DNA from: Acidobacteriota bacterium
GTDB taxonomy: Bacteria > Acidobacteriota > Aminicenantia > Aminicenantales > Saccharicenantaceae
DNA: 46,028 nucleotides
Direction of reading: 5' to 3'
Assembly (NCBI GenBank): GCA_014894455.1
Contig: JADBLN010000020.1
Span: 1-46,028, forward strand
This document shows positions 16,978-20,636 of this stretch, piece by piece. Position numbers and translations under genes: made by a program. Numbering within the stretch: position 1 is the first letter of the stretch; the number at the start of each line of letters is the position of its first letter. Under the pieces are notes generated by a model, which was given only the letters and a program-made list of their open reading frames with translations, ran no database searches and was not told the DNA's origin.

Positions 16978-18123
16978 TCAGGCCGTGAGGACTTTGTTGA
17001 CCGCCTCGCTTCCCGACCCCGGCTTGAACCGGCAGCCGAGCCCCTCGAGCGTCTTCTCCACGGCCTCGATCGCGAACCTCACCTGGGCCGAGGTCAAGTT
17101 GCCCATGTGTCCCATGCGGAAGACCTTACCCAGCGTCTGGGCCAGGCCGCCGGCGACAACGACGCCGTTCTCGTAAAGCGACGAGCGGAAGGCCTTGTCG
17201 TCGACGCCGTCCGGGTAGCGGACGACGGACAGCGTCGAGGCCGTGAACCGCGGGTCGGTGAAAAAGGTGAAGCCGAGGGCGGCCAAGCCGGCCCGGATGG
17301 CCTCGGCGAAGAGGTCGTGACGTTCGAAGCGTTCCTCGATGCCCTCCTCGAGGATGATGCGCGTCGCCTCGGCGAAGGCGCGGACCTCGTTGACGCAGGG
17401 CGTCGAGAAATATTTCGCGGGGTCGTGCATGACGGGCAGCCAGCGGAGGAGGTCGGAATAATAAGCCGGGATGGAAGCCAGGCTCCGGCGCTTCTCCATG
17501 GCCGGCTCGGAAAGGACTAGGATGGCCAGGCCCGGCGGCGTGCCCAGGCATTTCTGGGCCGCGGTCAGGACGACGTCGATGCCCCAGGCGTCCATGCGCT
17601 CCGGGACGCCGCCCGTGGCGCAGACACCATCGACGACGAAGAGCGACCCCGTTTTCTCCAGAACTTGGCTGTATTCCTCGACGGGGGCGCCGGCGCCGGT
17701 CGCGGTGTCGACGTGGGTGCAGACGACGACGTTGTAGTTCTTCTCTTTCAGCCGCGCCTCGAGCTCCCTCGGCGTGACGGCCCTGCCCCATTCACACTCG
17801 AGGACGTCGTGCTCGAGGCCGAAGGCCCGGCAGATGTCGGCCATCCGCCTGCCGAAATAGCCCTGGGAGAGGACGAGGACGCGGTCGCCCGGGCCGACCG
17901 TGTTGAGGACGGCCATCTCCATGGACAATGTACCGGCCCCGGAGATGATGAAAGGCTCTCCGTTCTCGCAAAAGACGATCTTCTTGAGGTTCTCGCAGGC
18001 CTCCTTGAGGTCCCGGGCCATGTCCGGCCCGACGTGGGAGACCGTGGGCTTGGCCAAGACGTCGAGGATCCGCGGGACGACCGGGCTGGGGCCCGGGATC
18101 AGGAGCAGTTTTTCTTGAGACAT
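16978..18123 (-). CDS. class V aminotransferase, alanine-glyoxylate/serine-pyruvate type
   Basis: The 381-residue enzyme opens with LLLIPGPSPV, the hallmark N-terminus of the alanine-glyoxylate and serine-glyoxylate aminotransferase group. SGAGTLSMEMA is the PLP phosphate loop, VDGVCATGG carries the PLP aspartate, and TAAQKCLGTPPGLA holds the Schiff-base lysine. It should move an amino group between alanine or serine and glyoxylate or pyruvate in the cytoplasm, a source of glycine. The ATG at 18123 has AGAGGA upstream; the track start at 18141 is a TTG without support. It leads a two-gene operon with the DUF362 protein. Phosphonate- or isopenicillin-type relatives share the fold, so the exact substrate pair is uncertain. 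Confidence 0.88.
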   Translation of the reverse strand: MSQEKLLLIPGPSPVVPRILDVLAKPTVSHVGPDMARDLKEACENLKKIVFCENGEPFIISGAGTLSMEMAVLNTVGPGDRVLVLSQGYFGRRMADICRAFGLEHDVLECEWGRAVTPRELEARLKEKNYNVVVCTHVDTATGAGAPVEEYSQVLEKTGSLFVVDGVCATGGVPERMDAWGIDVVLTAAQKCLGTPPGLAILVLSEPAMEKRRSLASIPAYYSDLLRWLPVMHDPAKYFSTPCVNEVRAFAEATRIILEEGIEERFERHDLFAEAIRAGLAALGFTFFTDPRFTASTLSVVRYPDGVDDKAFRSSLYENGVVVAGGLAQTLGKVFRMGHMGNLTSAQVRFAIEAVEKTLEGLGCRFKPGSGSEAVNKVLTA

Positions 18124-18181: not shown

Positions 18182-18194
18182 GACGAGCCTTGGA

Positions 18195-18339
18195 GCGCTG
18201 CCCGTTTTGGCAGTGATAGGGACCATGCATCTCCCCCGGCCCCCGGGAACCAGTCCCGACGGTTCCCCCGTCGGCCAGCCGACGGGTCCCCCTCCGCTAC
18301 GGGGGCTTTGCATGGTCCCTATCACTGCCCGGGCAGCGC
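18195..18339. repeat. 145-bp nested palindromic element
   Basis: The outer arms GCGCTGCCCG (18195-18204) and CGGGCAGCGC (18330-18339) are perfect complements, as are the 21-bp arms starting GGCAGTGATAGG (18209-18229) and ending CTATCACTGCC (18309-18329). The core contains further stems: GGGAACC/GGTTCCC (18245, 18261), CCGACGG/CCGTCGG (18256, 18268), CCCGTCGG/CCGACGGG (18267, 18279) and CCCCC/GGGGG (18288, 18301). Several of these exclude one another. No ORF of note lies inside. The form suggests a MITE or REP-like mobile remnant, or a structured RNA. It lies between two minus-strand genes. Confidence 0.8.
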
Positions 18340-18347
18340 CCCTGGAG

Positions 18348-18396
18348 AAAAAGGGGCCGGTTCTATTTTTCACACGTGAAAAATAGAACCGTCCCT
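18348..18396 (-). terminator. near-perfect hairpin, terminator of the VIT/VWA gene and possible REP unit
   Basis: GGTTCTATTTTTCAC (18359-18373) and its exact complement (18376-18390) are separated by 2 nt, and pairing continues imperfectly into flanking GGGGCC/GTCCC. On the minus strand the stem is followed by CCCCTTTTT (T-run complement at 18348-18352), only about 10 bp after the VIT/VWA stop, as in an intrinsic terminator. The AT-rich stem and its closeness to the larger palindrome also suit a repetitive extragenic palindrome. Confidence 0.65.
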
Positions 18397-18407
18397 TTGT
18401 ATTGGGG

Positions 18408-20513
18408 CTATTCGACGATACGGTAGCTCACGCCTTCGAAGACGACGACCAGCTTGTTTCCCGCCGAGAGATACTTGGCGATCCCCGGCTTTTCGGCGAT
18501 CAGCTTGTAGAATGCGTCCGAGTTGAACTTGAATTCGGTGACGGGCGCTCCTTCTTTGTATTCGCTGTCGGTCCAGACCCCCTCCTTGAGGTAGAACGTC
18601 TTGTCGTCCTTATACAGGATCCGCTCCGAAGCGACCTGGGCAGCCCGGTCCTCGAGCTTGAAAGCCTGAGTGGCTTTGGCCGCCCGAACCGCGCCCACGC
18701 CGCCGACGACGCCGCCAACGATGGCTTCCCGGGCGGCCGGGGCCGCAGCATCGAGGGCCTGAGCTTCCTTTTCCGTGACCAGGAACGACGTGTACGGCGT
18801 GACGATGCCGTACTTGAGGCCGAGGCGCCTGATCTCATCGACGAGCTCCCGGTTCGAGCCCTGGAGGCGGATCTCCTCGAGGAGGTAGCCGATGCGCCGC
18901 GTCGCCCACAGCCGGGGCAGAAAATTGAAGGAATCGCCCTTGGCTATGACCCGGCCTTCGAGGGCGAAGCGCTTCTCCTCCCGGCCGCTCTTTCCGGTCA
19001 GAGCGACGCTCACCGGTCCACTTCCCGTGTACTTGCCGACGAGGACGAACTGGGAGCCCTTGAAGAGATCGGGCAGGGAGCGGGGATAGACCTGGCTCGT
19101 TTCGATCCCCCTGAACGTGACGGCCAGGTCGGAGAGGAGGGGTGAGGAGATCTTCTCGTAGAAACTCGAAACGGCGACTTCGAGATTCTCGTCCTCGCCG
19201 ATGTAGACGGACGTCCCGCGATGGTCCGTGGAGATCCTGTCCAGGAGCTCGGTGTTGACGTCGTTCCCGACGCCGAAGACGAAGACTCTGGCCCGGGCGT
19301 CATTCGCCTTTTGGATATTCCTCAGGATGTCGGCCGTTTCGGTCGTCCCGGCCGTCGGCAGGCCGTCGGTCAGGAAAAGGACGTAGTTCGGGCGCTCCCC
19401 GGTCCGCATCCGCGCCAGGGCCGCGAGGAGCGCGTCGTTGATGTTCGTGCCCCCCGTATCTTCGATGGCCTCGACGAACTTGAGGGCCCGGCCGATGTTT
19501 TCGGCCGTCGCCGGGACGAGCGTTTCCGAAAACGGCGTCACGCCGTCATCGAAATCGACGACCGTAAATTCGTCGCGCCGGTCGAGGTGGTTGAGGATGA
19601 ACCGGGCCGCTTCCTTGGTCTGGCGCATTTTGGCCCCGCTCATGCTCCCCGAGCTGTCGAAGACGAGGACGATCGTCTTGTTGACGACTCTCTCCCCGGC
19701 GGCCGCGAAGCGCGGTGAGGCCAGGAGCATGAAATACCCGCCGTCGGGGCCCTCCCAGTTCAGAAAGGACAGGCCGATATCGTCTTTCGAGAGTGAGTAG
19801 TAGACGAGGAAATCCTTATCCGGCCGGACGCGCTTGTCCTCGTAGCCGACGCGGGCGCGGCCCGGACCGTCCTTCCTGACGGAGACCTTGTGGGAGGGCG
19901 AATAGACGTTGAGGATCGGGATCTGGCTTTCGATCCGGACGGAGACACTGACATCCTCGAGCGGGTCGCGGGAGAACCTCTCCGTGCTCAGGGGATAGAG
20001 GTACTTAACCAGGCCGCCGTCGGACTTGAGGACCTCCGTATAGGAGATCTGGACCCGCTTCTCGCCATTGGCCGGGATGGGAAACACCCTGGCCCGGAAG
20101 AGGTTGTGGCCCATGTACTCGAGAAGCCCCGGGTCGCGCATCCGGCGGACGATGTCCTCGTAGATCCGCCGGGCTTCGCGGCCGTCGAGGATCTCACCCT
20201 TGACCCTCTCGTTTCCGATGTACATGGCGAACTCGGAGACGGAGGCGCCTTCCGGAACGGGGAAGATGTAGGTCCCTTCGATGTCCCGGCCGAAGTGGTT
20301 GACAAACACCTGGTCGACCGAGGTCTTGGCCACCTGGTCGACGATCTCCACGGTGACGTGATGGTACTTGACACTGAGCGGCGGGATGTCCTGCCCCGGC
20401 CGCGGGCTGGGAATGATGAAACCGTCGGCCCGGAGCCCGGGCGCCGCGGCCAAAAGGACCGCCAGCGCGCCCAGGTTGATCAGACTCTTGATCGTTCGTC
20501 CTCGATTCTTCAT
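18408..20513 (-). CDS. secreted VIT and von Willebrand factor A domain protein
   Basis: The 701-residue product has a signal peptide (ending PGLRADG), an N-terminal VIT domain (about 30-165; VSVKYHHV-like strands, VPEGASVSEF, GEILDGREARRIYEDI) and a VWA domain (about 280-460). The metal-ion-dependent adhesion site is complete: DSSGSMSG, the threonine in DTGGTN and TDGLP. This is the inter-alpha-trypsin-inhibitor-like arrangement, used for metal-dependent protein binding outside the cytoplasm. The C-terminal 240 residues include an alanine-rich stretch and no known domain. The start at 20513 follows AAGGAGG closely; the track start 28 codons upstream is not supported. A -10-like TATAAA (20556-20561, minus) lies about 45 bp upstream. 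The binding partner is unknown; such proteins sometimes pair with marine-proteobacterial sortases, but none is adjacent. Confidence 0.88.
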   Translation of the reverse strand: MKNRGRTIKSLINLGALAVLLAAAPGLRADGFIIPSPRPGQDIPPLSVKYHHVTVEIVDQVAKTSVDQVFVNHFGRDIEGTYIFPVPEGASVSEFAMYIGNERVKGEILDGREARRIYEDIVRRMRDPGLLEYMGHNLFRARVFPIPANGEKRVQISYTEVLKSDGGLVKYLYPLSTERFSRDPLEDVSVSVRIESQIPILNVYSPSHKVSVRKDGPGRARVGYEDKRVRPDKDFLVYYSLSKDDIGLSFLNWEGPDGGYFMLLASPRFAAAGERVVNKTIVLVFDSSGSMSGAKMRQTKEAARFILNHLDRRDEFTVVDFDDGVTPFSETLVPATAENIGRALKFVEAIEDTGGTNINDALLAALARMRTGERPNYVLFLTDGLPTAGTTETADILRNIQKANDARARVFVFGVGNDVNTELLDRISTDHRGTSVYIGEDENLEVAVSSFYEKISSPLLSDLAVTFRGIETSQVYPRSLPDLFKGSQFVLVGKYTGSGPVSVALTGKSGREEKRFALEGRVIAKGDSFNFLPRLWATRRIGYLLEEIRLQGSNRELVDEIRRLGLKYGIVTPYTSFLVTEKEAQALDAAAPAAREAIVGGVVGGVGAVRAAKATQAFKLEDRAAQVASERILYKDDKTFYLKEGVWTDSEYKEGAPVTEFKFNSDAFYKLIAEKPGIAKYLSAGNKLVVVFEGVSYRIVE

Positions 20514-20636
20514 GGTCTCCTCCTTGAGCATGTTGCTGCTCCTGCCTTTCATTCCTTTATACAACCGAGATCGCCGTTTTGTTCCATCTGCGGCCAAGGA
20601 AGGTCAGGATGACGCCCCCGATCTTCATGGGCCGGT

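Follow-up and report, generated by a model that had tools for sequence, protein, structure and literature searches.

The nested palindrome at positions 18192–18342 of the window (the whole 46,028-nucleotide stretch of DNA that was analysed) is very probably one copy of a non-autonomous, gene-less mobile repeat of the order Aminicenantales, MITE/REP-like in character. Its copies lie scattered in intergenic DNA, are not all shared by close relatives, and are paired along their full length with compensatory changes, and a three-helix core (P1, a variable P2, and a near-invariant P3) is conserved inside arms that are specific to each lineage. We infer that a recombinase acting in trans spreads the copies, and that it would recognise a folded, probably single-stranded form. 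Below, G000 is the genome that holds the window, other G codes are relatives, and L codes are loci. The features of the window copy and its surroundings are as follows.

16978–18123, minus strand: class-V aminotransferase gene; the element lies upstream of it
18192–18342, minus strand: whole nested palindromic element, a family A copy; the minus strand is the "R" strand, on which the fold tolerates G·U more than A·C
18195–18204: left outer arm, GCGCTGCCCG, pairing with 18330–18339; covariation helix 1
18205–18208: TTTT asymmetric bulge (AAAA on the R strand), unpaired and on one side only; kept in most sister copies
18209–18229: left inner arm, 21 bp, pairing with 18309–18329; helix 2, with double changes in 15 of 20 pairs
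18233–18305, minus strand: conserved core, CCCCCGTAGCGGAGGGGG-P2-GGGGGAACCGTCGGGACTGGTTCCCGGGGGCCGGGGG, found throughout the order
18233–18238: one side of the P1 closing stem, pairing with 18300–18305; the sixth pair is G-C or A-T by lineage
18245–18267, minus strand: P3 hairpin, GGGAACC-GTCGGGACT-GGTTCCC, almost invariant order-wide
18267–18286, minus strand: P2 hairpin, CCCGTCGG-CTGG-CCGACGGG, variable in sequence, with compensatory changes
18300–18305: other side of the P1 closing stem
18309–18329: right inner arm, 21 nt; covariation
18330–18339: right outer arm, CGGGCAGCGC; covariation
18408–20597, minus strand: VIT/VWA protein gene; the element lies downstream of it

In the window copy the 10-nt outer arms and the 21-nt inner arms are perfect complements, and the bulge and inner stems sit where an earlier, sequence-only reading had placed them. 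The palindrome goes beyond chance on both strands: the plus-strand RNA fold reaches -104 kcal/mol, where shuffles give -60.3 ± 4.4 (z -9.9), fuller folds of 18192–18342 give z of -10 to -11.5, and each of the two strands, whether folded as RNA or as DNA, is far more stable than its dinucleotide shuffles (z -9.9 to -11.5). The arm motif matches the window twice, against 0.02 expected, and only at this element. The stretch contains no coding sequence, as that reading also held, and lies between two genes on the minus strand. A conserved TTGATTT...CACAAT comes just after the element, toward the aminotransferase gene; calling it promoter-like is our own reading, and a promoter consensus scan did not call this stretch. 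Adjoining the element at 18351–18398 is a near-perfect palindrome, GGTTCTATTTTTCAC-AC-GTGAAAAATAGAACC, which looks terminator-like on the minus strand for the gene upstream of it, and a genome search returned no second close copy of the pair.

A gene neighbouring the element assigns the window to Candidatus Aminicenantes. The element is not single-copy. A BLAST search of its own genome returns 29 places, which reduce to some 25 distinct loci, full or partial, once self-palindromic and double-arm hits are removed, and matches are present in 35 of 60 relatives. The longer matches in G000 are only ~80–88% alike, so the element may no longer be active in this genome. The P3 motif occurs 14 times in G000, 20 in G004, 33 in G014, 35 in G042, 23 in G058, and 31 in G049, while the reversed-pattern control gives 0–1 per direction in each genome. 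Across 396 genomes of the phylum, matches to the core are confined to the order; searches of viral contigs (with the exact P3 motif) and of plasmids gave no match. Nearly all copies are intergenic; out of 93, just 2 were marked as lying within a predicted ORF.

Orthologous sites show that presence of the element is polymorphic. At the window site, the closest relative (G004, neighbour protein 95% identical) lacks the element, G010 has only GACGCCACCCAGGTGGCGCC, which corresponds to bare outer arms, and G011 and G012 have other palindromes instead; further orthologous sites likewise differ among relatives. Several of the "empty" or short sites, core-less copies included, look like deletion products, judging by the short direct repeats at their junctions: GGA at the L252 site in G004, GGGGC at C79:22054–22116 in G000, and a 7-bp direct repeat in the ~91-bp core-less MITEs of G058. 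At the site in G000 that corresponds to L197, one outer arm is retained. We also considered that the core is an independently inserted module and rejected this, as microhomology deletion (GGA, GGGGC, GCCGCCC) appears to explain the core-less copies better.

The pairing itself is conserved. Among 27 aligned family A copies, pairing is standard in 97% of cells in the arms, P1, and P2, and double changes occur in 23 of the 39 pairs, a level reached by 0 of 500 shuffles and lost when the partner is slid by 1–3 columns. The same test goes against one proposal of the sequence-only reading, that stems sharing CCGTCGG exclude each other. Such pairing is physically possible in the window copy, but the alternative stem that excludes P2 covaries no more than shuffles, and we therefore reject mutually exclusive hairpins as a conserved feature of family A. 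In G042 and G014 the sequence would permit the alternative pairing, since CCGACGGG is present both in P2 and in the loop of P3.

A core of ~75 bp (P1, P2, and P3) is common to several families of Aminicenantales, and on the R strand reads CCCCCGTAGCGGAGGGGG(G)ACC-[P2]-GGGGGAACCGnCGGGACTGGTTCCC-GGGGG-nCGGGGG. The sixth pair of P1 changes from G-C to A-T in the G008 copies, and two further genomes have P1 shifted to CCCCAG/CTGGGG; the copies of G049 and G054 are the exception, with an A·C mismatch at the sixth pair. P2 differs between copies in both sequence and length, with compensatory changes (rows of G049 and G058, where the alignment register is off, were left out of this comparison). P3 hardly varies at all; its one variant, GGGACC/GGTCCC, is compensated. 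Two further near-invariant motifs of the core, TAGCGGA and NCGGGACT, are left unpaired by the model.

Perfect arms could also be maintained by nothing more than template switching (quasi-palindrome correction), in which case the fold would not be under selection and the repeats would be inert debris. The arms are indeed long palindromes, many copies are partial or chimeric, and the core-less copies resemble slippage deletions. However, correction predicts no asymmetry between G·T and A·C, yet the R-strand arms hold G·U and A·C cells in a ratio of 56:10 (in 16 versus 9 pairs), and strand-neutral pairs, which are predicted on both strands, give 46:22 over six lineages together; the cells in these counts are not independent, shared ancestry is uncorrected, and strand-specific mutation could contribute. 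The greater tolerance of G·T on the CCCCCGTAGCGGAGGGGG-reading strand suggests that this is probably the strand selected to fold. Correction also leaves unexplained why unpaired core bases are conserved across families and why G042, G058, G014, and G049 carry 23–35 nearly identical P3 motifs, and we consider it an unlikely account of the family.

Outside this core the copies diverge by lineage, and the same core sits in different palindromic arms in other lineages. Family A, which comprises the window copy and its genus mates, has arms GACGCYRCCCG-GGC..GTGATGGGGRCCATGCA and their complement with a conserved AAAA bulge, and no precise target-site duplication can be read for its copies. Among the terminal inverted repeats (TIRs) are CTAATACAAACGCAATAAA..., AAGCRTCTCT..., and TTCGGTTTTTTCGGCGG... 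(a count of arms over whole lineages by free alignment was too loose and is left out). In G058 and G014 the core lies within a ~197-bp MITE with ~29-bp TIRs, CTAATACAAACGCAATAAATAAAGTGACA...TATTAG, and most of the ends read YTAATA..TATTAR, which would fit a TA duplication; a TIR-bounded, core-less version of ~91 bp occurs in G058. Over its versions the element measures about ~145–330 bp.

One account of these differing arms is that the core, folding as single-stranded DNA, is the real propagating unit, and that the arms are captured flanking DNA: an inverted copy of the adjacent unique sequence would be made at insertion, the palindrome would grow outward, and each lineage would come to have its own arms. 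At L002 and L003 the inverted repeat continues outside the element, and relatives without the full element have one mirrored flank only. Own-flank complementarity over 19 copies averages 6.16 against 5.37 for random pairing (48 of 5000 permutations), with four or five copies carrying the signal. The L195 site, where both flanks are present in a relative without the element, does not support such accretion, and we regard the idea as having a small chance of being right.

In G058 and G014 the core rides between TA-ending TIRs, as expected if a DDE-type transposase acted in trans. IS630-like enzymes prefer CTAG/TA targets, and the YTA...TAR ends led us to suspect such an enzyme. DDE_3 is absent in G000, G004, G058, G014, G042, and G049; G054 alone has it, and neither at nor beside that locus do the arms find a convincing match, which speaks against an IS630-type transposase in these genomes. 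In G058 and G014, both fragmented assemblies, neither long TIR pairs nor an autonomous copy sharing these TIRs was seen.

The sequence-only reading had proposed, beside a MITE, a REP/BIME-type repeat mobilised in trans by TnpA_REP (RAYT, a Y1 transposase), and had suggested a search for a TnpA_REP gene flanked by the same arms. The element is palindromic and intergenic, its asymmetric bulge resembles that of IS200/REP hairpins, most cores contain GTAG, and Y1 genes occur in 49 of 60 relatives. No Y1_Tnp domain (PF01797) is found in the 96%-complete G000 genome, however, nor in the element carriers G010, G035, G045, and G047, and none of the 32 Y1 loci tested in relatives carries the core or the arms. 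Five of them (L145, L303, L304, L308, and L313) carry instead a different, GGGACA-type palindrome, GGGGACAYGTACC...GGTACRTGTCCCC, and the RAYTs here thus appear to serve that other family, the GGGGACAYGTACC-type palindromes being their likely RAYT/TIRYT partners. These five loci are consistent with the RAYT/TIRYT-type loci described in PMC3733652, for which its authors report a common GGGGWSAS motif and an Acidobacteria group. A REP is a 20–40 bp palindrome tagged with GTAG (or CGTC) at one end (PMC3733652), far shorter than the present element; here GTAG lies within the core, and whole lineages have ATAG in its place. Mobilisation by TnpA_REP is therefore very unlikely.

That the element is a conserved and structured cis-regulatory RNA or sRNA, multi-copy by chance, or the two-state regulatory RNA once proposed for it, is very unlikely: compensatory changes, one-strand tolerance of G·U, and the near-invariant unpaired motifs would suit it, but exclusive pairing lacks covariation, the element is missing at orthologous sites of close relatives as a mobile element would be, no Rfam 15 covariance model matches it, and orientation to flanking genes is random. 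In the 82 of 93 copies with both neighbours resolved by a simple codon-usage gene finder, the arrangements (+ being co-directional with the R strand) are ++ in 20, -- in 26, +- in 17, and -+ in 19, which argues for an inserted DNA element rather than a cis-acting RNA.

A non-autonomous mobile element, which was also the first proposal of the sequence-only reading, accounts for multiple intergenic copies, site polymorphism, compensatory changes, and clear TIRs in some relatives. Among known repeats, bcr1 of the Bacillus cereus group is likewise mobile, measures ~155 bp and conserves a secondary structure, but comes from an unrelated host; to our knowledge, a core common to different outer arms has not been described for it. 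The element has the traits of a MITE, being short, multi-copy, non-coding, and intergenic, present or absent at orthologous sites, and bounded by inverted repeats (the ~29-bp TIRs of G058 and G014, the 10-bp outer and 21-bp inner arms of the window copy). It resembles the bacterial MITEs Correia/NEMIS, ERIC, and RUP (PMC2229807), which are gene-less intergenic imperfect palindromes of ~100–200 bp with terminal inverted repeats; the G058 and G014 copies end in TA as well, and Correia elements too may either contain or lack an internal segment (155/107 bp). Unlike in these MITEs, the core here is conserved across families of an order while arms and TIRs vary by lineage, and the family A window copy has neither an AT-rich TIR nor a readable target duplication. 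REP/BIME elements and REPINs with their RAYTs (PMC2817692, PMC3116915, PMC3733652) are likewise multi-copy, clade-confined intergenic palindromes with an asymmetric hairpin, but the present element is much longer and nested, has a three-helix core, and showed no RAYT flanked by the repeat.

The reading that no described family has these arms holds for the sources searched: the repeat family is undescribed in Rfam and in the literature searched, where Aminicenantes palindromic repeats or MITEs returned nothing relevant, and its distinctive point is the order-wide three-helix core in lineage-specific arms. One more repeat family is thereby seen to shape the intergenic DNA of an uncultured order, and the question arises why the folded core hardly changes when the inverted arms, normally the defining part of a MITE, differ by lineage. 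Should recognition fall on the core, it would not be enough to say, as is usual, that a transposase reads terminal repeats.

Some copies are joined to, or interrupted by, other sequences. Half-elements at L016, L018, L020, L029, and L287 of G004 are fused to another intergenic repeat of the AGATATTTCCCAGAATTGTGGC...GCTCCCTGCC type, which suggests recombination between repeat families. In otherwise intact G014 MITEs, P2 contains inserts of >100 bp of two kinds, one at L244, L245, and L248 and the other at L246 and L249. Lastly, P2 of L002, L003, L005, L015, L195, and L201 holds CGCTTCTCTCGAAGCG or its complement and so resembles the tip seen in GGGGACATGTACC palindromes at other places in the genome; repeat families appear to have exchanged their hairpin tips.
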